A stretch of DNA of 64,000 nucleotides, from the NCBI GenBank assembly GCA_002205965.3, contig NADL03000512.1, forward strand, positions 1,240,001 through 1,304,000. The letters are read 5' to 3'. This stretch comes from Kappaphycus alvarezii (lineage: Eukaryota; Rhodophyta; Florideophyceae; Gigartinales; Solieriaceae). Under the pieces are notes generated by a model. It saw only the letters and a program-made list of their open reading frames with translations, did no database searches and was not told the origin of the DNA. The position numbers and the translations under genes were made by a program. Positions within the stretch are counted from its first letter, which is position 1. Every line of letters starts with the position of its first letter. Shown piece by piece: positions 1 through 41,256 of the stretch.

Positions 1-967
1 AGCTGCAGCCTTCCTCGCCTCCAGCGCAGCGTCCAACAGGCTGTGTGCAGCCCTCCTCCCAGCGGCAATTACGGATCTCTCAACGTACCGAGACATCGTC
101 GAGGCGCACCAGATTTGGTCCCTCTCTTGCTCCCAGTCCAGGATTATCCCCTTTAGTGCCCTCTGCTCAAACAAAACACCATCACAGAAGACACTATCGG
201 ACGCCATCCACGAGCGGGTGCAAGAGGAGATCGATGTGGGCGACAATAGACGGCAGGCCTTCCGTGCCTCCATGGGGCTCCCCGGCGCGAAAGATTGGGT
301 GTACTGCACCCCATCTCCGGGCCTTAAGACTAGCATTGAACCAAGAGAATTCTCAATATGGTTCCAATACTATTGCCAAGTCCCGCTCTTCCTCCGGAAA
401 CACCATGCCCCAAGCGGAACTGCCCCGAAACTCTCGACTGTTTCGGCGACCATCTGTTGCACTGCTACACGGGGGCGAAAGGACGCGAAGACACGACTGT
501 CAGGTTCGTTTATTGGCAAGCGATCTCATGAAAGCCGCGCGACATCCAGTCATCGAGCCGCGAGAAGGGGTCCACCGCACAAGACCCGATATCCGCGCAA
601 TGGGACGAACGGGCAGAACAGACCTTTCTGTGTCACCTTCGTCAACCCCCTAGCGCCCTCGAACAGGAGAGTGAGGACATTCAACCCACTCACCTCGCTT
701 AACGCGGCAAGAACGGCGAAACACAGAAGATACGAGTCCTTTATCGCGTCTTCCGCCGGAAGTAGGCTAGTGCCCGTCCCTATCTCTACCCTCGGGGGAT
801 GGCACCCGGACGCCCACGCGTTGCTAACCGACGTCGCACGCAACGTCGCTACGAGGGCAAGGGAGACCTACGCAAAGGTCAAAGAAATCTTATCACAGCG
901 TCATGCCGCAGCAGCAGTAATGTCCAACGTAGCGTGCCTGTTGGCCGGCCTCCCGTCAGTTTTCTAG
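1..967 (+). mobile_element. LINE (non-LTR retrotransposon) C-terminal fragment, frame-broken
   Basis: The window opens inside a non-LTR retrotransposon. Three + frames together carry the tail of the polyprotein. It has a Cys/His segment around 405-480 that reads DCFGDHLLHC in one frame, then an R-H-D motif and RHPVIEPRE (about 490-570), and RPDIRAMGRTGRTDLSV (about 575-640). It ends with GGWHPDAHALLTDVARN (about 797-848). Cys/His knuckle, RHD, EP and RPD..D in this order fit the zinc-finger plus restriction-like endonuclease end of site-specific-type LINEs; that endonuclease assignment is inferred from motif order. The reading frame changes at least twice, so this copy is dead or the sequence has indel errors. 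The RT lies outside the window. A related RT-bearing copy lies at 52034-55680. Confidence 0.6.
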
Positions 968-1055
968 CGTTTTGACGTCTTCCTGCCATTTCTTTATATT
1001 GTAAGCCTTTACCATCACGACATCCCTCAGGGAACAGCTGACCATATTTTTCATG

Positions 1056-3600: not shown

Positions 3601-5070
3601 CAGCTCTATTCGGACAATAAATCTACCAAAAAAGAAGCTAGTCGACCGCGATGAAATCAAAATCCTCAGCGGGGACTTTATATCCGATTCTAACGTTGGC
3701 GGTCTGGAGCCTTCGAAATCATTGGAAAAAGAACTGGTCTTAAAAATACTCCCCAAAGTAAACCTGCGTCAAGGATCGGAGTGCAGACCAGTGAAGAAGA
3801 TTCCACAGACGAATGAGAAAAGAAAAAATTACGTTACTTCTGAAGGGTCAATTTGCTCACTTGCGAGAAAAACGCAGATGGAGAACAATGGCTTTCTCGA
3901 CGACACAGTAATTTTCGCCTGGATTATAGAAGAGCCACGACTTGCATCCGTCCTGTAGAAAAATTTCTCGAAATAAGGGATAATACTGCGATCTGCCACA
4001 GGGGTCGTGGAATTTTGTCTCTTCACGAAGAGACAAAATGTCAGGAAATCGAAAACCTGTTGGAAGCTGGTATAATTACCCCTGCGTCTTCCAACTGTCC
4101 ATTTCTCGTTGCAATGGTTACCAAGAGGGATTGAATAAACCGCTTCTCCGTAGAATACTGAACTCTTGCCTTTAAATAGAGGCCGACTGCAGGAAGATTC
4201 TAATAGTAAAATTAATACTCAAATAGCTAAAGGTTAGTTCCGTTTTCACGATCATAGATCTATTCAATGGTTATTGAAGATCCACTAAAGTGAAGATTGC
4301 AATAAGATGACGAACTTCTTCAGCCATTTGGATACCTTCAAGGTCGAAGTGATATCATTTGGTCTGTTGAATGCGCCCCTACATTGCAACGCATGATGTA
4401 CTACGTATTTTGCTATATTTCTGTTGTCAGTGTTTCCTTGGAAGACATAGTTGTATTGTACAACTTTTTTGAGGAGCATATCGGACATTTCCTTTCGTAT
4501 TCGAAGATTTAGGAGAGGCGGGCCTGAAACTCAAGATTACGAATTGCAATTTCTCCGACCCGACGTTCAAGATGCTTTTGAACCACATAGATAACAACAG
4601 AGTGCAATTCGATGACGAAAAGGTCAAGGACATAAACGAAGGACCATTTACTACGAATAAGAATGCGCTGCGCGCATTTCTTGGAATTTGGGAGTACCAG
4701 CCCCGTTTCACCAAAACTCTTTGCCTGTATATCTACCGACCCTCATGCTTGCATTTATGAAAAATGAAAACTTGAATCGTCAGAAGAAATTACCATGGCA
4801 TTCGAGAATCTCAAGGAAAGGGTTACCTCCCCACGTGTACTAGCTTTTCAGAGCTTTGAGTCCCCTTAATTTTTAAAAGGATGCTTCAAAAGTCTCTCTT
4901 AGAGCCGTTATATCGTAACCGAAAGGAAAGCAGCAAGATACATCCCGAATAATACAAAATAAAAACGGCAGAACGGAATAATTTCGCCTATAAAAGGGAC
5001 GCACTCGCTGTCATTTGTGCTTTTAAGAAATTTCGAGTTTATTTTCCATATGCGAGAATGTTTAGGTCAG
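3600..5070 (+). mobile_element. Ty3/gypsy pol fragment (RT and RNase H), heavily decayed
   Basis: Reverse transcriptase blocks can be followed through frame changes. EIENLLEAGIITPASSNCPF (about 4048-4107) is the start of the RT domain. Around 4340-4400 a stretch ending SFGLLNAP and QRMMYY is the conserved SPFGL.NAP..FQ.MM block. Next come LEDIVVLYNFFEEHIGHFL (YLDD region, catalytic YxDD degraded to SLED), KVKDINEGP and ALRAFLGIWEYQPRFTK (RT connection). ALAVICAFKKFRVYF (about 5000-5045) is RNase H. The upstream protease is unclear and no integrase or LTR was recognised. It is inactive. Confidence 0.7.
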
Positions 5071-8000
5071 GTTAGGGTCTTACATCGGATATTTTTCCGA
5101 GGTGTTATGCAGAGATTATCACTAGTGGCGCATTCGAGGACTGGTGCTTCCAAAGCTCGGAAATAAATTTCATTGGGAAGGGCCGGATTTGATCTTTTCC
5201 GTAGATGGGATCTGTAAATTTTCGATGGAGTTATCGATGTCAGTGACTCTGCTGATTTCAGTGGGGGCTCTGGGCCTTTTTAGATTCGAGTAAACATGAA
5301 ACATGGCTCACTTTAGAGTACAGGAAGATCACTAAAGCTGCGGTAGACTTTATGGACACAGCTCGAGTCCGTATCGTTGTGAATAGATATCACTCCAGGA
5401 AGGGCCTCTCGAGTGGTCATATGAAAATATAACGAGGTTTACACCATACGCGAGGAAGAAAGTTCATTGTACCTTGATCCCCGACAGATACTGTGTGGTT
5501 TGTCTGAGATCCATTGGTGAATGATCCTTAGAGGAATCATGCATTACGGTAATGTATCATACTTGACGGTTTTCGGCTATTTTTTGGAGGGAATTGAAGA
5601 GCCCGTGAAAAAGTACAGACTTTGTTCTACATGTTTGAATTACGATGGATTTATACTAAATTGGTGAGATATGATATGCCTAAGGTTCTCTTTAAAGCGT
5701 CTTGATATTTCATCCGAGCACTGTTTGCTTCAAATGAATACCGATGCGTAGCAGAGCATGCCCGACTGCGCTTTTCAACCGATCCACAATAATTGAGCGA
5801 ACATCTGTTTTCTTTGTCAGTTAATTGCGTTTTCGTAGATTTATTTTGGAATTTCTATGCATATGAGGATAATCAATTGGATCTCGATGATATATAGCTC
5901 TGCAAAACTTCGGAGTACTTGAAATTGTCAATTTTCGATCTTTTCGTCCGGATTCGCTTCGTGAGAGCATCGTTGCTCTCGAGTAAGGCTTATTTCCCAC
6001 AAGCGCCTGTTTCATCTGAGTATGTGGTGACGATTACATGCTAGGGATGAAAATGCGCGGATCGAAACTGGAAAAAAGTTTCGGAAAGATGGGATTGAGA
6101 ACTTTATTGCTTTGAATAGCGAAGTTTATTTTACTATGTAGGTCAGAAGGGCATTGCAATGTAACGGGCTATCGATGCCCTAGCTTTTTCGGAGAGTTAT
6201 ATATATATGATCTAATTTCGAGATCTAAAAGAGCGTCGAGTTCGTGTCGGAAATGGAAGCGATGTTACGACATGATAGGGAAGAACGAGGTCAATTTTGT
6301 ACTGTATTCGGCGATGCTTACAGAAATGTAACGATGGATAACTATATGCGCGCGACAGTGGCGAAGAAGCAATGGTGGAAGGTATTTAGGCGAAATACTG
6401 GCCGTCGACCGCGAAGATTGAAAAGGAGCAGGTTTTGATGCTCGAGTAGGAGACTGTGGAGTGGCTTGACAATGTCGATGACTGAACAGGAAAATGGGTC
6501 GAATTAAAAGCGACTTGTCAGGAAAACTGTCGCATAAGTAGTGCCAGGGCGACTGACTGAATACAGGGTATGTGAATCGTGCCCATTTAATTTCAATAAA
6601 ATGTACTTATTTTTATTCAAAAACCAGGTTTGCCTACTCACAAAAAGGAGACGTATCTACTCCAGCATAGTCACGGTTGGTCACCTTTGCTTTACAGAAC
6701 AAGTGAAAGGCGGTATTTTAAGTAGTTTCGTCTTTTCTTTTCTTCCATTTGGACTCTTTTCGTTGCAGCATAGCGTAAAACAGTCATACGTACCGGGCAA
6801 TCTGCGGAAACAATTTGTATGCGTATTCGCGGTCGACGTCAAACAACCATCTCAAACTGACCGATTTGAACAATTCATTACACATCGATACCCCTTCTGA
6901 CCTTGCACAACAAGAGCTGCATATAAAAGCGCTTCCACTAATGCTGAATATCATCTCGGTCGATTTTATTTTCCATTTCTCGTAGATCGGTACCAGCAGG
7001 GCAAAATGTTCCGCCAGATTTTGAGGGCACGCAAGTTTGCGTTACAACATTTGCGCTACACTTCCCGGCTGTTCATTGGCTTGGACCTTCTTCGATTCTA
7101 AGATTACTTAGAACGTTTTTGAAGCAATAGTTAAACTGATAAGAAGCAGTTTGGGAGCATCCGTGGCTTTTTTGAGAAAGCGTAAGAATTTTGCGAATTG
7201 GAGTGGAGAATATTTACTCGTTGAGATAAAACTGGTATTTTTCTTTATTTCGAGATCTAAGGCAAAGTATACTTTGAAAGATAGCATATAACGTAGCATG
7301 TCTGTTTTAACTCCAATGATAATTAGCGGAAATTCATACTGTGAGCTTCTGTGAATGGGCATATCGTCTTTCCATCCAACGCAATCCTAACAGAATGCAT
7401 AGGAAAAAAAGATGGGACAGAGCAAAAGAGACTTTGTGGGAAATGGTAGAAGTGAGGTTAACTCAAGTTAGAGGTCGTAAACGTGAATGGTACATAAGTA
7501 CACGACGGTTTCTATACAGAACACAGACAACAGAGCTTCTGTAAACGCTTTTAAGTTCCTATTGATCTTTCCACTGCCTTTTTGAGCGTCCAATCTTTCA
7601 TTGGAGGAGTTTTTGCTTGCTCCACCATGGTTAAACGGCTGAGCTATTCGAGATACAACTTTTTTACCGCTAGAACAGGCCTTTCAAAATTTTCTGTAGC
7701 CTCAAAATATGATACTGAGTCTTTTAACACCGAAGTAAATCCCCAAAAAAGTCTTGTATTTCATAATTTGCAAAAAGATCCCGAATTAGAGATATAGTTT
7801 GTGCTTTGCATTGAAAATACTGTACATGTTAGTGTCTCTGAAACCACCACAATCACCGATATAATTGAGAAATGTGGCAAAATTCTAATATTAAGAAAAA
7901 AATATTCGTAGAATTGAAAATTTTGGATTCAAAACGGGTTTATGACGGCCCTCGCGCGCTATTCCTTAGAATAAATCTAGAAAGATGCAAAAATGTCGAA

Positions 8001-16084: not shown

Positions 16085-17329
16085 TTACTCACTCGACAGG
16101 CCGAAAGACACATCTTCATCTTGTTCGTGACAGGTGCACATGGTTACTCTGTTCCCGTCGTCTTCGCCGTCGGCTGGGCTTTCTTCGCCATTGTCGATGG
16201 CATTCCCCGTCATGTGATTGACGGTACCCTGCCACTCTATGACATCAACCTCCTTGCATTTACTATCGGTCGAGATGTGGCCGTGCGGGCGCAGAGGTAG
16301 CATTGGATCTTGGAGCCGTCTCTAGGCGCCCCGCATGGGTCTCCTCGTGGTGACCTCTCATTCTGCTTCCTTGAACTGCCAGATTGTGTGAGGCTCACCT
16401 CGTCGTTTACCGGTGAATCTATGTGTATCACGTCACGGTTCCAGTTCTCGAGCATTTTCTATGCCACGGTTGTTTCTCTGGGTAATTGTCATTCCTTGCA
16501 ATGAACTCATTCTCCAAGCATGTCGATATGTTGGCGAATCTCGCCTTGTCCGCCGATATAATGAACCACGTGGCTAGCATCTTGTTGAACGCCTTTTTCT
16601 TTGCTTTCTCCAGCTGACCGTCTGTCACCTTCGCTCTCCGTACTTTCATCGGTTTTCAGCACCTTGTTGGTGAGTCCCACTAGCTCCATTCCAAGGTCGA
16701 CGTCTATGTGCTCTAGCACTTCCACGACGGCTACGAACCTCTTTCGGTACTGGGTTAGCGACTCGTTTCAGCCTTGTCTCAACTTGAAAAAGGCCGCGAT
16801 CGACGCAGTCGTTGACGCCACTGGTCTCTTAGAGCCTTGTGGGTTGGGTATCCACACCTTGATGCTTCTCAAAAGCTTCTCTAGGTCATTTTAATTAAAG
16901 ATGTCGCCTAAGCTATTCTGTCATCTGAGCCTTGCCTGGAGCGAGTCAGAGGATTGTCCGAGGACTATCGTAAAGACATTGCATCTCTTTTTTGTCATAA
17001 TTTCTCTTCCGTAGCATGTACTCTTTGATTTCCTAGTTAAATATCGCCCTGCCCACCTCGTCTTTCCTCGACTCTTGGAGCTTTGGCTTCCACTTGTCTC
17101 TTGAGATCTACTATCGACTTCCAGATGTCCATTGGGAGAGATAGACTCGTTTTAACCGACTTAGAGATCTTTTCGATGGTCTTCTCGTACTGGTAGGCAC
17201 AGGCGGCCGCATCGTACGTGTAGACCCACCACTGAAGGCCCTCGTTTTCCCCACAATAAGCTTCAGTGGTGGTCTGTCGCGTCGATTTTCTATAACATTC
17301 GCCTCTGTCGAATCGCTTCTTTTGATCAT
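16085..17329 (-). pseudogene. Copia-1 gag with CCHC zinc knuckle
   Basis: The minus strand carries a gag of several frames. The N-terminal part (17329 downward) reads PPLKLIVGKTRAFSGGSTRT. A middle part has NKMLATWFIISADKARFANI, and the end has a CCHC knuckle. The knuckle is split by a frame change: IQCYLCART in one frame and GHISTDSKC in the next give C-x2-C-x4-H-x5-C spacing. It then runs into an acidic tail with EESPADGEDDGN. The start codon was not fixed. Confidence 0.65.
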
Positions 17330-17839: not shown

Positions 17840-18862
17840 ATGTCTTCCACTACCAACGCAAATTCTCCTGAAGAACAAGCCCCTGTCCGTCTTGGTGTCA
17901 TAACCGACATTCAATACGCAGACAAACCTGACCAATTCATCGATGTAAGTTCGCACAACCGTCCACGAATTCAGTCTCTTGTACCATCTCGATGGTACAA
18001 GATCATTCTTTTCAATTCGAGCAGTTCGCTTCTACCCATCTGACCGTGTCAGATATTTTCATTTAAAACACAGTACGTAGGCAAAATCCGCGAATTCTCC
18101 AAAATACTCGCAAAGACGGAACTCGCTATAGACCATCTTAACGAGCAACGTCCTTCTGCGATCATCCATCTTGGTGACATTGTCGACGGCAATGAAACCT
18201 TGGACCAAACCCGCTCTGATCTGGAGCAAGTTCAGCGCCTGAAAAAGCTCCGTTCTCCATTGTTTCATGTGCTTGGGAATCATTGCTTAGAAGCAGGGCG
18301 CGTTACCTCTTTGATAAGTTGAAACTCTCCAATGGCTCCTACTACTGCCATGACCTCTCCCCATTTTGGCGACTCATTGTACTGGACACTGTTGATAAAT
18401 CTATTCAACGCGTAGGGACAGCCCATGTAACAAGCTTGCACATGACTATTTGAGAGAACATGCTGGGACCAAACGCAGTCGGCTGGAACGGTGGATTGGG
18501 ACCTGACCAAATGCAGTGGCTACGCCATGTACTAGCAGAGACAAAAGAGCAACGTCGATGGCGGTGGTGTGTGGTCACTTGCCCATTTTAGAAGAGGCGT
18601 CAAGTGATCAGCATGTTGTTTGGGACGCGCAAGAACTGGAGCAACTCTTGTTAGCAGCGGTGTCGTTAAGGCGTACTTGTGTGGTCACTACCATGACGGG
18701 GGTTACGCAAAGAAAAATGGCATCCATCACGTCACTTTTGAGGCTATCATCGATTCGACCGATGACAAGGGCGCGGCAGGAGTTGTGCAGCTCACCAAGA
18801 AATTCATCAGTATAGAGGGATTCGGTGCCCTGACCTCAAGGAAATTGCCTTTGGCAACGTAG
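17840..18862 (+). CDS. Manganese-dependent ADP-ribose/CDP-alcohol diphosphatase-like phosphoesterase (frame-broken)
   Basis: Members of this calcineurin-fold family hydrolyse ADP-ribose and CDP-alcohols with Mn. Exon 1 (17840-17944) starts at a Met and gives VRLGVITDIQYADKPD, the first metal site (D..Y.D). A 129-nt intron (17945-18073, GTAAGT...ACACAG) follows. Exon 2 carries AIIHLGDIVDGNE, VLGNHCLEAGR, GGLGPDQMQWL, VVCGHLPILEE and YLCGHYHDGGYAKKNGIHH, all metal or substrate motifs of the family, and ends near IEGFGALTSRKL. Deletions of one base (for example near 18301, 18467, 18560 and 18650) shift the frame. The partial copy at 1697-2460 lacks most of these, so errors are likely. It converges with TOR. 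Confidence 0.82.
17945..18073 (+). other. Spliceosomal intron of the ADPRibase-Mn-like gene
   Basis: GT-AG intron with donor GTAAGT and acceptor ACACAG, preceded by a T-rich tract (TATTTTCATTTAAAACACAG). Removing it joins ...QFID to YVGKIREF in frame. Its 3' half is also present in the duplicate at 1697. Confidence 0.8.
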
Positions 18863-28200: not shown

Positions 28201-29340
28201 TACAAGTCATGGAAGCCCTTTAAATGTATCGCAAAGAAATTCCGCCCAGAAGATGTATGGCAGACCAAGTAATGGCCTTCATTTCTGTCCATGCATGTCG
28301 AACAAACATGTACTCCCTTTCTTACAGACTTTGCAGTTGCTCTGGAGACTATAGTTTGTCTGAGAACCATACTTTCTTCTGCGCTTCTTCTTCGTGGGCC
28401 TCAGATGCGGATCTACGCCGGAGGGCATATAAGGAGAGACCATATCTGGCTCATAAGAATCGATGGATCTATATCTCAACCCTGTACAGCCATAAGTATT
28501 GCCAATTAATTGGCAGGCCAACGTCTCGTAGAACTTTCTTTGCGTCATTTTTTCGGCTTCCTCTTTCTCACTAGAGTACAAAAGCCAAGCGTCAGCAATA
28601 ATTACACCAAGGATTGAACAATTAACACGTAAAGACCAATCATGAGTGTCGAGTTTTCGTTCTAACATCAGATCGTCCGGGCTGCACCGATTGTGTTGAT
28701 CAATTTTGTCCCAGGCAGAATAATAACTTTCAGAAACCTTAGACTGGTTAATAGAAAGCTCCACTCTTTGCGCCAGACAGAAGACCTGTCTCCACCTAAT
28801 TCTTTTGTATGGATGGCCTTCTAAACAATTAGATACATCAGATGTTAAGTAATTTCCTCACGATCTACCCAAACTAATGCCATCATTGAAACAGTGCTGT
28901 CGCTGTCTTCTCGCTCCGTTGACTTCCACATTCCTCCTCTTTGGTCAATCTTCAGCTGCGAAAGAGAATCCATTGAGAACCGCCTTGTCGCAATTTTAAA
29001 AGTCCTATAAGCCTCAATTCCATGGATTTCATTGCCCCCTCAGCTTCTACGCTAGCAAAGAATGAATCGAAGCAAACAATTAGTCCACTTCCAGCCCATG
29101 CAGAAACAATTCTACGAAGTACAGCACTGCCATATAGTCCATCCCCTTCATACTGTCGACGAGACTCCTCCTCGGCTGTGGACACAAGTTCCATATGTAG
29201 CATGATGTCACTTCGGCCGCAAGTGGCATTTTGTATCTCACAGCCGTTCTCGGGTTTGCGATCAATTGCAACATGCATTGGTAGGCCCTTATCTATCCAA
29301 TGTCCCTCCATTCCATACTGTAGTTCAATTGGCACTCACA
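28200..29340 (-). mobile_element. piggyBac-family transposase remnant
   Basis: Two minus frames hold the C-terminal half of a DDE_Tnp_1_7 (PGBD) transposase. The first (29335-28952) has AWAGSGLIVCFDSFFAS, the 'G..v..DsyFaS' catalytic Asp block. The second (28764-28279) has YYSAWDKIDQHNR, SPDDLMLERKLDTHDW and LRVNCSILGVIIADAW, the 'iDrHNr.rqd.l.LEr...T..W..Rv' block. A Cys-rich tail has CKVCKKGSTC and, after a frame change, EGHYLVCHTSSG. The N-terminus and first Asp are missing, and about 190 bp between the frames are degraded. No TTAA-flanked inverted repeats were found. Confidence 0.75.
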
Positions 29341-31583: not shown

Positions 31584-31620
31584 CCCCCTCAATTGAAGGA
31601 AAATCCTTCAATTGAGGGGG
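31584..31620. repeat. Perfect 17-bp inverted repeat
   Basis: CCCCCTCAATTGAAGGA, loop AAA, TCCTTCAATTGAGGGGG. All 17 pairs match. As RNA it would be a very stable hairpin. It could be a transcription-end structure or a collapsed small inverted-repeat transposon. Confidence 0.9.
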
Positions 31621-31921
31621 TCAGTAAAATAGACTCCGGAGTACTGTTCCTCCCTCTTTTTTTAGATAGTCGCCCCTCGTAGATAAAATTTTTTATATTT
31701 TCAAATATCCTACAGTACAGTGCATCACTTCTGGTCCTGGGAAACTTCTAGAACCCACGTGTACTGCTGGAGGCGGCAGTACACTACGAGGTGCGTCCAA
31801 GCACCGTATTTGTACATTGCTTCTCCCCCCCTTACCCTTGCCACCCCGCCTGCCCCAACGAGCCTCACGACTCGCGCACCATTCACCCACAACCAGCCAC
31901 CATTTGGTAATGTGCCGCTAA

Positions 31922-31959
31922 TACAGCACCACCCTCTCCGCTACAGCACCACCCTCTCC
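31922..31959 (+). repeat. Tandem duplication upstream of the H3-mimic ORF
   Basis: TACAGCACCACCCTCTCC occurs twice with a period of 20 bp, about 170 bp before the ATG at 32131. A promoter role is possible but unproven. Confidence 0.75.
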
Positions 31960-32130
31960 CTACGAAGAACCTCAGGCGCGTCCATGTCCGCCAATTCGGT
32001 TGTAATCCATCTTGAACCCTCCTTCCCTCGAGTGCCTTACCCCCTTCGGGCTCTCCTGTCTGCTTTGCTCTGGTTTCATCAGTGGCGGATCCCCCGTGCC
32101 GGTTCGGTCTCGGCTGGTTGATGACCTTAG

Positions 32131-32847
32131 ATGGCTAGGACAAAGCAGACCGCGAATAAATCGACTGGGGGTGAGGCATCGCGGGACCAATGGACGAGGA
32201 TTGCAGCGCGGAGGGCAGCTGGTAGCTCGCGCATCTTCCGCTGCCACGAAGGTGTATTGACGTCTCATGATTACTCGGACAAGACTCCTTTTGCTGAATG
32301 CGAAATCGATTTTCGCGCACCGCAGGATCGACACTTGACGTTGAGGCTGTGGGACATCTGCGTCCCACCAATGTGGACATTTGGTGCGTTCAGGAGACGG
32401 GGACATAAGAGTCAGCTTCTCGGAGGAAACTGTGGTGGAAACGTCGAGTGGAGAGTAATAAAGGGGGTAATTAGAGACCGCCCGCACCCGAAGTATAATT
32501 ATACGATTTTTGTAGATGCTTGGGGCGCAAGTAGTATTTGCGGAGCCGACGAGAGTGAATGGCCCGTCGTGAGAATCTCCCGTGTGGCGAACGGGGTACA
32601 TAGCGTGGGTGCGCTGACCTTACGATTTAACAGGGACCGAAGTAACGTGATTGAAGCGACGGCCATATTGGGCCTTGAACGACCTTGCCGTACGCAACCA
32701 AAACCAGATCCCAATCCGCGTAGTGGACGACTTCCGGCGCAATTTCTGAGGCCATTTCTGCACCCAGCGTCCTCTTCGCATGGAGACGGGCTACAGTCAG
32801 GGTCTCTATCGGACGATCTCCGGACTCCTGGGCTTGCGGCGGATTAG
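32131..32847 (+). CDS. Histone H3 tail-mimic protein, 3' part replaced by gypsy antisense
   Basis: The ORF opens MARTKQTANKSTGGEASRDQ and continues WTRIAARRAAGSS. Against canonical H3 (established sequence) about 20 of the first 30 residues are identical without gaps. Lys4, Lys9, Ser10, Arg17 and Arg26 are kept. Arg8, Lys14, Lys18, Lys23 and Lys27 become N, E, D, I and R. There is no histone fold after this. Residues 33-166 are unrelated, with HEGVLTSHDYSDKTPFAECE, RLWDICVPPMWTFGAFRRRG and NYTIFVDAWGASSICG, and look like a compact mixed strand-rich domain. From about residue 167 (base 32628) the frame is only the antisense of a gypsy integrase, so the true 3' end is lost. I do not recognise the second domain. 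Reader and writer proteins of H3 tails are possible partners (inference). Confidence 0.6.
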   Translation: MARTKQTANKSTGGEASRDQWTRIAARRAAGSSRIFRCHEGVLTSHDYSDKTPFAECEIDFRAPQDRHLTLRLWDICVPPMWTFGAFRRRGHKSQLLGGNCGGNVEWRVIKGVIRDRPHPKYNYTIFVDAWGASSICGADESEWPVVRISRVANGVHSVGALTLRFNRDRSNVIEATAILGLERPCRTQPKPDPNPRSGRLPAQFLRPFLHPASSSHGDGLQSGSLSDDLRTPGLAAD

Positions 32848-33770
32848 TACGGTCAGTACCCATCACGCGGGGTTTGAAGCCGTACAGCAGCTCAAAGGGG
32901 CTTCTCCGCTGTCCCAGGCCAGCAGCGATATCTGAACACACACTTATGAGGGCTTCAACCCAATCTTCTCCATCATTAACGATCTTTCTAATTCAATCTC
33001 AAGGTGCGAACCATCCTTTCCTCTCTTCTGTTGGACATGGGGGCGTACCCCATGATTGTGCACCACTTGATCCATGATTCTGCATGAAAATTACGAGGGA
33101 AGCAGGGTGAAAACATGTTCAATTATCGCTCAAAAACTCCCTAGGAGGGACAAATGGCCTTATTATCTCTTCTTCCACAAACCACATAACTATAGACGCC
33201 GTCGCATTGTGTATAGACATAGAGATTGGATATCCGGTTAGATGTTCGACACAGACCAATATGTCACGGAAGCCTTTCATAGATCGCTAAAATGGGCCTG
33301 CAAAATCAATTGAGAAGGTTGAGGACATTCCTCCCATCGGCACACCGAAAATCGGCACGTACTGCAGTAGCTTTGCATTCGTTGAAACGTGTCGAAGGAA
33401 CGCACGTATTCGTAGATAGCTCCGACCTCCCTCGGCCACCAAAATCGATCCTACGTAAACTTAAAAGTGGTAACGCGCATCCCAATGGTCCACACTGTCA
33501 TGGAGAAAGCGCATTATTTTTGGCACGCACTGCCATTCCCGGAATGATCCCTGGGCCACCTTTCGTGCGGCAGAACAAATTGCCGTTCCAACCATAAATT
33601 TTCGGCTGCACGCCTTGCTTTCAATCTCTCTTTTTGGTGGATCATAGAATATCTTCCATGGAAAAAGTATTGGCTGACCAAAGTGAGATATGGCTCAGAC
33701 CAGCGTCGTCCACAACCTCCGGGACCTACTGAGAGGAAGAGATCCCCTTCATCCTGGCCAGACCGGACCT
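32627..33770 (-). pseudogene. Gypsy-1 integrase
   Basis: The C-terminal part (32941-32627) reads RRSPFELLYGFKPRVMGTD, then LHAKRTLGAEMASE, YADWDLVLVAYGKVV and LQSRYFGPC. These match the gypsy integrase blocks 'SPFelLYG..PR' and 'D.VLv......KL..RyiGPF'. The core between 32941 and 33770 is broken; the DDE residues could not all be placed. Confidence 0.75.
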
Positions 33771-33776
33771 CTGTTT

Positions 33777-35010
33777 CTATAGCTGATCGCGACAGTATAT
33801 GTGCTGACCCATCATCTTTCCGGATCGGTAACGAATAACGTAGTCATATTCTCCCAGGAAGTAAAGCCAAGGAGCTATCATCCTATGTATGTCCTTGAAC
33901 GCAAAGGCTTTCTTTAGCGACCGATGGTCGGTAATGAGATTGAAAGGGTGGCTCGAAAAAAGATATACACGAAACTTCCGTAAACTAAAAGCGACTGCCA
34001 AGGCCTCCCTCTCGCAGACCGAGTAGCGTTTCTCTGCCAAGCTCATTGTCCGACTTGCTTATTGTACGGATTTATTTCCCATCCAGTTGTTTTTGCGATA
34101 AACAGCGCCGACTTCCGAGGAGGATGCATCTGTTTTGACGATGAAAGACATTTTAAAGTCAGCAAGCGCTAGAACAGGTGGGAAGTTCAACGCTTCCTTC
34201 AAAGAGTGAAAAGATTCTTCTTCCAATTCGCCCCACGCGAATCTCCTTTTTGTCGAAGTCACTGCGTGCAAAGTGGCAGCCTTACTCGCAAAGTCCTTAA
34301 TAAACATCTTATAGTATCCTGCCAGCCCGACGAAACTGCGGACCTGCGTAATGTTGACGGGGCTTGGGATTGCCTTAATTGCCTCGACCATTCCCGAATC
34401 CACCCGTACTTGTGCTCGTCAACCACATGGCCCAGAAGACCTATCTGTCCTTGTGCGATGTAGCATTTAGCCAACTTGAGCTTCAATCCGTATTTTGGAA
34501 CGCCGCTTATAACAGCTGAAACGTGCTCTAAGTGCTCTTCCAAGTTTGTGGAGAAGACCACGAAGTCGTCCGAGTAGATGCGAGAGAATCAATATCTGCT
34601 AGGACATGGCCCATCATCCGCTGAAACGTCGAGGGGGCGTTCATAAGCCCGGTAGTCATAACGGTGAATTGGTAAGTCCCTAATCGTCACGTGAATGGTG
34701 TCTTCTTCTTACAGGGCTCCTCGAGGCGGACCTTCCAATACCAGCTGAGCAGATCCAAAGAGGTAAACACAGTTTCGCCTTGCTGGGAGTCAAACTTTTC
34801 CTCTATTTTCGGCAAGGGCCAACGACCACCCTTCATCTTTTGGATAAGGTTCAGGTAATCGACGCAGAGGTGGGGCTTTCAGTCCTTCTTAGTAGCGATA
34901 AAAACCGGAAAGGACCAGACAGATAATGCGGACCGAATTATCCCAGCTTCCAGCATCGTATCCAACTGCTCGCGACGAGCGTTCTGCTTAGGCGCTAGAA
35001 GACGCCCCCT
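33777..35010 (-). pseudogene. Gypsy-1 reverse transcriptase and RNase H
   Basis: RNase H block (34046-33777): LAEKRYSVCEREALAVAFSL, RKFRVYLFSSHPFNLITDHR, DYVIRYRSGK. RT end (34403-34059): VRSFVGLAGYYKMFIKDFAS and FIVKTDASSSEVGAVY. RT middle (34561-34259): EEHLEHVSAVISGVPKYGLK, LKLAKCYIAQGQIGLLGHVV. Toward 35010 the N-terminal RT blocks appear in rapid frame changes. The YxDD box falls in a break near 34570. Confidence 0.82.
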
Positions 35011-35239
35011 ATGGTAGATGTGCTTGTCTTCATTGAGTTCGAACGAGTGTTATATAAGAAAGTTCGAGGGGAGAAGGTCAAACAAGGATTCGGCGATCAC
35101 GTAGCCTTCATAAAGAAGCTTTTGTTGTCTTCTTCATAGTCTGATTCCTCCTCAATGGCTCCATCCATTGCCACAGAAACATTACCTCTGGTCAGTTTCT
35201 TTTTGGCTCGATTCCAGCAAGTAGCTCCGAGTTCCCTTC

Positions 35240-35950
35240 TTACGCATTTGGAGCACCTGGTGTCGCGATGGGGATTTTCGGGGCAACGGCTAGCTGTATG
35301 CCCCTGCTTGTGACAGAATGAAAAGACTCGATCATGGTCAGCTGGTAGGCTCTTCCGATGCCATAGGAGGCCCCTTTGATCGAGTCCAGCTGCCTTGGCT
35401 GCTTCTTGATCATTACAGAGAGATCCTCGAAGGCAGTGATGAGACTGTCCACCTTGCTTTTATCTTTGGTACAAGAGAATCAGAACGAACAAGTAACCTT
35501 GGTGCCTTCTTTTCGATAGAGCAGGCCTGGCTGTCTAGCCTTGACTCCTTATATTTATAAGAAAAGGCCTGAGCCGATACCCCCGCTGAGATCGGCTATC
35601 GGTGAAGGTTCAACGACTTCTGCGACGACTGAAACGCCTTTTTTCCTCCATCAAAGTCAGCGATAATAGACTTCATCGCCTGAGAATCCTTAGGACTGCG
35701 ATATATAATATAAGGAACCAGATACGAGTGGACCATCGCGGCCTTATGGAGAAGCTCAAACTTGGCTTCCTCGTTGAACTTAGCCTTAGCGATAAGAGAA
35801 TCTATTTTCGGAATCAATTCCATAAACGGTTAGGATCGAGCTTAGCGTCCGTTGCACGACGAATCACTTCGTGCGCTCATCTTTGTCTCCAAACTTATCC
35901 CAAGTGCCGCTTTGACAATAAAATAGTCCTTTCCATCCGTCAAAAGATCA
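35240..35950 (-). pseudogene. Gypsy-1 gag with altered zinc knuckle
   Basis: 35823-35596 reads LIAKAKFNEEAKFELLHKAA, a gag helix block. At about 35335-35265 a minus frame reads FSFCHKQGHTASRC. This is a CCHC knuckle whose first Cys is replaced by an aromatic. It is followed by two more Cys pairs (CSKCVRR). Confidence 0.6.
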
Positions 35951-39840: not shown

Positions 39841-40560
39841 GTTAATATTGTGAGAAATCGCTTTGTCCTCGCAATCAAAGACCCTGGAACTGCTATTGAG
39901 AAGCTCAAATCCTTTGCATTGTACAAGGACACCAGGGTAAGCAGAAACATGTCATGTCTCACAACGCTCCTATTCTAATACGCTTTTCACTACGTCTTAT
40001 TGTGGCAATGTCTGTCATATATTTCGACTGTGATTTATTTACTCGTGATATAGAATATGCTTATATTCAGAGCAAATCTCTTTCACGCCCTGTGTACCTT
40101 ACGCTCCCCTAGACAAATCTATCAGATGGGTACTTGCGAAGTATCAATCCACCGTATTCGGGACTGGTCGAATCTGGATAATGTTGTTTTGATACCTATT
40201 ACCCTACTACACTCGGATCTATAAAAGTTATGTGCAGCATTTGACACTTGTTTACTGTTCCCTGTGAACGGACTTAACCTTGAAGGGCTTACAGTACTCC
40301 CTAGAATCAATTGCTACAGGCACTAAAGAATTTGAGGACAATGAAGGAAAGGCTACACAGAAATTTAAGTTAACCGAAGGGTTGCTGAATCCCTTGTTTT
40401 CTTGGGGACCGATATTGTCAGAACTACGAATGGATTTAAAATGAATCAACGTGGCCATATCAAAAGTTTAATGACAATGAAATGTGTTGAGCAGGATGCA
40501 TTTCGAAGCTTACGTGGTAAGATCCTCTACATCACTCAGTGCACTAGGCCTGACGTTTCA
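39841..40560 (+). pseudogene. Copia-2 reverse transcriptase
   Basis: VPTDVNIVRNRFVLAIKDPG starts the RT. The YVDD region near 40200-40260 is degraded. SLVFLGTDIVRTTNGFKMNQ and EQDAFRSLRGKILYITQCTR end the domain. The last motif TRPDVSYEVA is where the 25-bp minisatellite begins. Confidence 0.7.
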
Positions 40561-40701
40561 TACGAAGTTGCAAGCCTACATTGTATACGAAGTTTCAAGC
40601 CTACATTTCATACGAAGTTGTAAGCCTACGTTGCATACGAAGTTGCAAGCCTGCGTTGCATACGAAGTTGAAAGCCTATGTTGCATACGAAGTTGAAAGC
40701 A
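40561..40701 (+). repeat. 25-bp minisatellite, about 5.6 copies, inside copia-2 pol
   Basis: Unit TACGAAGTTGCAAGCCTAC plus about six more bases, repeated at 40561, 40586, 40611, 40636, 40661 and partly at 40686. It grew out of the codons for SYEVAS at the RT/RNase H junction. 25 is not a multiple of 3, so each unit changes frame. Confidence 0.9.
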
Positions 40702-41256
40702 TAGCACAAATTCCATATGAAGAAGCTACACAAGCTCATGTGAAACGTCTAAACAAACTGGTCGTTTACTTGGAAGACTTGCAGGAAATCACGTTGAAAT
40801 TTTACAAGCTGGACGAAACTACACTGCGTACCTACATGTTCATTGATTCAGGTTACAACAAAAATACAGATCACTCCTCCCAGCTCGGACTATTGTTTTC
40901 CTATCCGACCACACAAATAAGATTATCTTTCTGCACTGGAGCTCTTCGAAATGTCAACGCGTCACTCGCAGTGTGCTACCTGGAGAAACATACAAATTCT
41001 CTCAACGATATGCTACAGCTACAGTTTGAAACACGTTATGAACTAAATGGGCAAGAATGTTCCGCTATTCATTTTTACCGATTCTAAATCTATCTTTGAC
41101 ACAATAACTAAGTCTAAACGGCTACAAGAACTACGCTTGATGGAAGATATCGCAGATATTCGTCGTGAATATCGGAATGATGAGATTTATAACGTCAACT
41201 GGATTCGCTCGGCCAACAATATCGCGGACAATCTCACACGTCAAAATGCAAGCTAA
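40702..41256 (+). pseudogene. Copia-2 RNase H
   Basis: YEEATQAHVKRLNKLVVYLE, then YMFIDSGYNKNTDHSSQLGL (first Asp in FIDSGY). After a frame change come LFIFTDSKSIFDTITKSKRL and ELRLMEDIADIRREYRNDEI, ending SANNIADNLTR. Blocks and order match copia RNase H. Confidence 0.8.

Follow-up and report, generated by a model that had tools for sequence, protein, structure and literature searches.

A histone tail without a histone

On the plus strand of the window, by which we mean the whole stretch of 64 kb that was analysed, an ATG at 32131 starts the frame MARTKQTANKSTGGEASRDQWTRIAARR..., whose protein begins MARTKQTANKSTGGEASRDQWTRIAARRAAGSS..., and the question raised by this locus is what a protein that opens in this way might be and what a histone H3 tail could do on it. 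An earlier note on this DNA had described a start aligned without gaps to H3 at about 20 identities; we counted 20 of the first 30 residues identical to the H3 of the host, with no gap. Using H3 as the query against the whole window, tblastn finds this start at E 3.4e-7 and its next match at E 0.08, and in the PDB the ORF matches H3 chains (E about 5e-4). A protein search queried with the ORF gave no match. Compared with H3, the residues K4, K9, S10, R17 and R26 are unchanged and the substitutions are K14E, K18D, K23I and K27R, just as the note had listed them, but the frame does not end at 32628 after 166 codons as was claimed there: the stop codon lies at 32845-32847 and the protein has 238 aa.

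Such an ORF could be a decayed true H3 gene, or an H3 pseudogene broken by a transposon, and gapped tblastn does extend the alignment of the tail with H3 to residue 46. Against this reading, a frameshift-tolerant alignment of H3 to 32131-32640 halts at residue 30 under each of four frameshift penalties, and no convincing H3-fold stretch was found elsewhere in the 64-kb window, where the remaining tblastn matches have E 0.08 or worse. The statement that no histone fold follows the tail is therefore upheld, and the alternative raised together with it, a degraded H3 with its fold in another frame, yielded no H3 fold in any downstream frame. Two other sets of candidates were discarded: further H3-like pieces downstream, first picked by eye, were not borne out by the frameshift-tolerant alignment, and possible H3-tail copies at window positions 945-989 and 16120-16191 (minus strand) are weak tblastn matches, with no match to the domain queries of the family described below.

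A dispersed family in the host genome

Genome searches were carried out on the Kappaphycus alvarezii assembly, whose 884 contigs total 336 Mb. With H3 as the query at least 86 matches were obtained, with 150 of 399 candidates scored; ten of them represent H3, frameshifted H3 or CenH3-like pieces, and the remaining 76 start at residue 1 or 2 and mostly stop before residue 60. From these 76 tail matches, 20 were fetched as loci of about 9.5 kb and five as short stretches for long frames. A diverged H3 tail opens a frame in all 20 fetched loci (with V for M in L026), and most of these frames are short or broken. Long frames are kept in L038 (359 aa) and L083 (421 aa), and also in L084, L021 and L016, so that the fuller accessory proteins, as we call them from their position in the carrier element, measure about 350-420 aa and consist of the H3 tail (residues 1-27, to AAR), a conserved and hitherto undescribed domain and, as judged by eye, a basic C-terminus.

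Some of the histone loci deserve a separate mention. L005 and L006 are H3 genes whose first codons are out of frame with the fold, either frameshifted pseudogenes or assembly errors, and L007, L008 and L009 represent two near-identical two-piece loci with a diverged H3 fold, candidates for centromeric H3.

The carrier is a Ty3/gypsy element

Between 35.5 and 32.5 kb the minus strand of the window carries a degraded Ty3/gypsy element, whose reverse transcriptase and RNase H were recognised by Pfam and whose probable integrase and gag were assigned by conserved position; the H3-tail ORF is convergent with its pol. The features of the window copy are the following.

31641..32130, plus strand: element DNA, from the presumed 3' LTR to the accessory ATG (collinear with L013 from relative position -473, window 31663, and with L015 from -501, window 31641)
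32131..32229, plus strand: H3-tail-like start, codons 1-33 (20/30 identities, E 3.4e-7; collinear with L013 and L015)
32230..32454, plus strand: decayed remnant of the accessory second domain, codons 34-108 (collinear with L013 to relative position 325 and with L015 to 321)
32455..32457, no strand: deletion junction, about 1.19 kb, rest of the accessory gene gone (window relative positions 324/326 equal L013 325/1518 and L015 321/1511)
32457..32847, plus strand: read-through part of the ORF, antisense to the 3' end of pol and not a protein domain (collinear with the pol of L013 and L015)
32502..32992, minus strand: probable integrase C-terminal pieces of the degraded Ty3/gypsy pol (GPY/F-like motif by eye; no Pfam match)
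33780..34058, minus strand: Ty3/gypsy RNase H piece (PF17917, E 1.9e-18)
34062..34418, minus strand: Ty3/gypsy RNase H piece, 5' part (PF17919, E 4.6e-10)
34262..34588, minus strand: Ty3/gypsy reverse transcriptase piece (PF00078, E 1.4e-7)
35100..35459, minus strand: gag-like piece with a zinc-knuckle-like motif by eye (weak PF16588, below cut-off)

This arrangement is general in the family. A convergent gypsy pol, on the opposite strand and with its 3' end toward the tail ORF, is present in 19 of the 20 fetched loci, the one without being L023; the presumed integrase piece at 32630-32992 has an antisense match in 14 of the 20, and the gag-like piece matches two (L022 and L025), upstream of the reverse transcriptase in the sense of pol. 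Within a family, collinearity between copies begins as far as about 820 bp upstream of the ATG and extends across the ORF and pol. Three loci were examined for LTRs: L022 has a pair of 332 bp at 94% identity (left at relative positions -781..-451, right at 4936..5258), L013 a pair of 166 bp at 85% and L029 short pieces; for the window copy no paired LTRs were found at the repeat-search settings used. These pairs enclose both pol and the tail gene, which is thus internal to the element: it sits between pol and the 3' LTR, antisense to gag-pol. The retrotransposon accessory-gene nature of the ORF, antisense to gag-pol, is what the earlier note had missed, along with the deletion in this copy and the antisense pol that makes up half of the domain it proposed. 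We are nearly certain that the window ORF is a remnant of an H3-tail accessory gene of a Ty3/gypsy clade.

Other repeats were seen in passing. Near the expected 3' LTR, window 31584-31620 is a perfect inverted repeat of 17 bases around a 3-base loop, and several copies of family B have palindromes of about 80-130 bp roughly 600-700 bp upstream of the ATG. Elsewhere the window holds a transposase remnant at 28955-29335 on the minus strand (PF13843, E 8.7e-7), which we take to be from a piggyBac-like element, a tandem array of a 25-base unit at 40528-40727, and a duplicate of about 0.75 kb (1697-2460 and 18013-18767, 16.3 kb apart, 95-100% identical in pieces) that looks by eye like part of a metallophosphoesterase gene.

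The window copy is a deletion form

The window copy belongs to family A together with L013 and L015, and lacks about 1.19 kb that both of these have, with the junction at 32455-32457. Of the accessory gene, the window ORF retains the first 108 codons only. By these alignments, what remains at 32131-32454 is the 5' part, now decayed, of an accessory gene carried by a clade of Ty3/gypsy LTR retrotransposons, and the ORF as it stands is evidently a deletion form whose C-terminal half was fused on and has no meaning as protein. The probably folded domain of about 135 residues that had been proposed to follow the tail is thus real in its first part, where codons 34-108 derive, in decayed form, from the second domain of the accessory protein, and has to be given up from about 32457 on, where the frame reads antisense pol.

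In 11 other family A copies, residues from about 107 on match apart from the rest of the ORF. Deletions in the family were surveyed by pairing the match to residues up to about 77-110 with that to residues from about 107 on, using 51 of 114 matches, those able to pair. Of the 25 family A copies that could be judged, 11 exceed the window by 1.13-1.21 kb in the spacing of the two parts. The remaining 14 comprise two with 0.57 kb more, ten with 0.08-0.17 kb (C809, C19, C697, C140, C552, C90, C124, C446, C38 and C507, deletion forms when set against the approximately 1.2 kb of the fuller copies) and two with no extra DNA, C725 and C8, the latter resting on a single match. In family B, L022 and L025 share a deletion of about 1.08 kb that removes most of the second domain and leaves the tail; a spliced genomic RNA was considered as its source and rejected, because by eye no GT-AG is present at the junction, which leaves a plain deletion. 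Tail-keeping forms without most of the second domain are therefore about as common as fuller ones in family A, tail-only subfamilies may have spread, and, as such forms are common, the second domain is not needed in cis.

Homologues and constraint on the tail

The accessory protein of L038 (P0003), searched against a set of 5.8 billion proteins, found one match, P0004, with 30% identity over 287 aa, and P0004 also begins with an H3 tail. A profile built from six sequences adds three proteins of Chondrus crispus (P0005-P0007), each starting MARTKQTAA(K/N)STGGKRPRKQLALK..., and two from ENA, P0008 with the tail present and P0009 (204 aa), which starts within the domain with no tail ahead of it. 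L013 matches the Chondrus protein P0005 with 26% identity over residues 1-344 (E 1.3e-16), so family A has the same domain, and the profile A1 aligns with H3 of the PDB over residues 1-38 (E 2.3e-13). The existence of conserved homologues with the same second domain, whose absence the earlier note had named as the other danger to its view, favours its idea of an H3 tail captured as a module of another protein, since tail and domain occur together in Chondrus too. In viral contigs no tail-only relative was found; there the H3 query gave one H3-like locus, L001, covering residues 37-131.

Because the first 20 loci had been chosen by likeness of the tail, 40 further loci were drawn by the domain alone. 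The domain-only query gave at least 132 matches in the host genome, with 126 of 867 candidates scored, and we took loci in which the match lay near the domain start and outside the loci already fetched. At the expected upstream place, 36 of these 40 loci have an H3-like tail that scores above the maximum of 240 null scans, made on reverse strands and shuffles. A chance origin of the window tail is ruled out by these null scans and by the tblastn E of 3.4e-7. Like tails upstream of one non-histone domain, in these loci and in Chondrus, also argue against a decayed H3 gene, and this explanation of the window ORF can be regarded as practically negligible.

Evolutionary rates were estimated on 30 of the 40 loci, leaving out the four without an above-null tail and six whose tail looked frameshifted or partly lost. 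Over 376 far pairs the tail has an in-frame pN/pS of 0.46, the other two frames giving 1.21 and 1.46; for the 59 near pairs the in-frame value is 0.54 and the others are 1.45 and 0.91, a weaker contrast, as one of the wrong frames stands at 0.91. Long frames were compared in a set of 10 picked for their length, a choice that favours intact copies. For the deepest pairs (L038 with L087 and with L086, pS about 0.65) the tail has 0.15 and 0.24 and the rest of the protein 0.29. Within families the tail values, based on few sites, are 0.51 in B, 0.08 in C, 0 in D and 0.21 in F, and those of the rest of the protein are 0.76, 0.81, 0.22 and 0.30 respectively; the near-neutral rest in B and C looks like what is expected of copies decaying after insertion. 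In the host and in Chondrus crispus alike, tail and domain have remained joined, with constraint acting at the level of the protein.

Tail residues kept and lost

In the 30 domain-chosen copies, A1, T3, Q5, A7, S10, T11, G13, A15, P16, A21, K23, A24, A25 and R26 are each kept in at least 73%, and G12 (70%), R17 (67%) and R2 (57%) less. The R8-K9 pair is kept in none of these 30, in two of the 26 tail-chosen copies and in none of the five tailed proteins from elsewhere; for K27 the corresponding counts are 0/30, 6/26 and 0/5. K9 by itself is kept in 12 and K14 in six of the 30 domain-chosen copies. In comparison with these copies the lysine pattern of the window copy is atypical, because in the family K23 is usually kept, K9 often lost and K27 lost.

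Residue 27 is V in 15, I in seven and M in four of the 30 domain-chosen copies, with four others; 27 of the 30 have V, I, L, M or F there and 11 have I or M, and the window copy has R. Sequences of the same family are not independent, so a hydrophobic residue 27 should be taken, family by family, as a majority trait and no more, and since similarity to H3 fades at residue 27-28 this residue could simply begin the linker. Families differ: positions 8-9 and 27 read N8-K9 and R27 in A, R8-R9 and K27 in D, and, both as in H3, R8-K9 and K27 in E.

The kept residues bear on an idea of the earlier note, that the protein might mark itself: the tail would carry methyl, acetyl or phosphate groups as that of H3 does, and such a mark would recruit or regulate the protein. 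Among tail-chosen copies 22 of 26 have K4 and 23 of 26 have K23; among domain-chosen copies the counts are 14 of 30 and 28 of 30, and T3, S10 and T11 are each present in 77-87%. Most of the classical acceptor lysines are nevertheless lost, as the counts for K9, K14 and K27 given above indicate, and we regard self-marking of this kind as quite unlikely.

The second domain

No Pfam match was obtained for P0003, L016, L021, P0005, P0007 and L083, with one sub-threshold match to RAMA (E 0.014); TRP28 (PF04195) is absent, and no histone fold was detected by Pfam in the accessory proteins. NCBIfam likewise gave no match to the second domain, and the PDB none beyond the H3 tail, the best being a bromodomain at chance level (E 0.4), where two of the profile comparisons covered the best 60 matches only. 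The model of P0006 built from six sequences has a mean pLDDT of 32.5, too low to give a fold.

In the C-terminal part of the domain an order C-H-D was seen by eye in eight sequences, with Cys and Asp invariant and His in seven of eight. This order recalls papain-like proteases and may serve as a lead only. Extending it, the second domain would be an effector, a candidate papain-like cysteine protease, targeted to chromatin by the tail or inhibited by it. The three residues speak for this explanation; the lack of a Pfam, NCBIfam or PDB profile match, the low pLDDT and the spread of deletion forms without the second domain speak against it, and we consider it unlikely. It is not incompatible with a role of the tail as an H3 decoy.

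A possible role against host silencing

For the tail itself the explanation that we favour is that of a decoy. The accessory protein would enter the nucleus; removal of the initiator Met would expose A1-R2-T3-K4 as in H3; and the tail would then act as a decoy or pseudo-substrate for enzymes or readers of the H3 tail. The net effect would be a weaker H3-based silencing of the element, with E(z)/PRC2 as the first target and the accessory protein itself left unmarked. Among the possible effects weakened H3-based silencing appears the likeliest, because in most lineages the R8-K9 pair is broken and K27 has given way to V, I, M or F, with K23-A24-A25-R26 unchanged; an H3 tail that retains A24-A25-R26, has one of these four residues at position 27 and no longer has an intact R8-K9 would be well placed to work as an anti-silencing H3 decoy.

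The host has the machinery on which such a decoy might act. CXC matches of EZH2 type were found at two places in its genome, and at the one locus that was fetched the encoded protein has both CXC and SET and matches an EZH2 chain of known structure at E 1.4e-58. A search of the host genome for Pre-SET, characteristic of the SUV39-type H3K9 enzymes, gave no match, and its controls were likewise unmatched; H3K9 silencing in this host may be done otherwise. In the red alga Cyanidioschyzon merolae, H3K27me3 is found on repeats according to the available text of PMC5405695. As far as the accessible part of PMC6513997 goes, M or I at residue 27 of H3 inhibits PRC2, and in EZHIP the residue R405, which adjoins M406, is required.

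From these premises the tail could be a dominant pseudo-substrate that blocks the host E(z)/PRC2, and perhaps H3K9 enzymes, which silence elements. V, the commonest residue at position 27, is not among the PRC2-inhibiting residues (M and I) named in the portion of PMC6513997 that was available, and this would tell against a decoy. A role as K27 pseudo-substrate cannot, moreover, hold for all lineages, because A has R27 and K9, and K27 is intact in D and E, in E together with R8-K9. In this specific form we find the proposal doubtful.

The main rival of the decoy is a tether, in which binding of the tail to H3-tail readers or to the import machinery of H3 would bring the protein, and the integration complex along with it, to the nucleus or to a chosen type of chromatin. 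The set of kept residues (A1, T3, Q5, A7, S10-G13, P16, R17, A21 and K23-R26) includes the free N-terminus and K23, and the free N-terminus of H3 is held by many readers. The basic C-terminal stretches seen by eye in L013, L083 and P0006 fit nuclear entry, and in maize the antisense-encoded accessory protein of Grande is located in the nucleus, as cited in the available text of PMC11963269. A tether leaves the loss of R8-K9 and K27 in most lineages unexplained, and we give it a rather low, though not trivial, likelihood; decoy and tether can both hold.

Returning to the decoy in its broader sense, an anti-silencing role of the accessory protein, as far as its sequence allows one to judge, is plausible and somewhat short of probable. 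Accessory-gene identity and anti-silencing role, taken both together, strike us as an evenly balanced proposition.

Comparison with known systems

Mimics of the H3 tail are known on non-histone proteins, such as influenza NS1 and the SNAG-type N-termini, where they are short motifs. The algal proteins share with these an H3-tail-like peptide, but theirs extends over about 27 N-terminal residues with a clear likeness. With the histones H3 of the host (L002-L004) they have the tail 1-27 in common, but they are without a histone fold, carry another domain and are borne by a retrotransposon.

Antisense accessory ORFs between pol and the 3' LTR are known from the plant elements Retand, Grande and RIRE2, and the function of Retand-type accessory genes is given as unproven in the available part of PMC11963269. 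The algal gene resembles them, as they appear in that text, in lying between pol and the 3' LTR, in antisense and in most copies; in contrast, the Retand ORFs are mostly TRP28 (PF04195), whereas the algal accessory protein has no Pfam match and an H3-tail start, and the word histone is absent from PMC11963269. Our literature search, which covered titles and the openings of abstracts and left subscription papers and preprints outside, gave no precedent for a retrotransposon with an H3 tail. An antisense accessory gene as such is therefore known, and one bearing a histone tail was not found reported within this search.

The H3-tail start points to a concrete target for such a gene, the enzymes and readers of the H3 tail, and it makes testable whether retrotransposons encode anti-silencing histone mimics. 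The family also constitutes a natural library: its dozens of diverged tails show which residues of H3 are retained in such a mimic and which are lost.

A close parallel is with EZHIP and the K27M histone, which, in the accessible text of PMC6513997, present an H3-like peptide with M or I at residue 27 beside Arg, as the alga, in the majority of lineages, has M, I, V or F after A24-A25-R26. EZHIP is a host protein that, as described there, copies the K27 stretch only, whereas the algal retrotransposon carries H3 1-27 at a true N-terminus and its inhibition is putative. If the proposed block of E(z)/PRC2 by a pseudo-substrate is true, the accessory protein would be a natural counterpart, made by a transposon, of the K27M oncohistone and of EZHIP.
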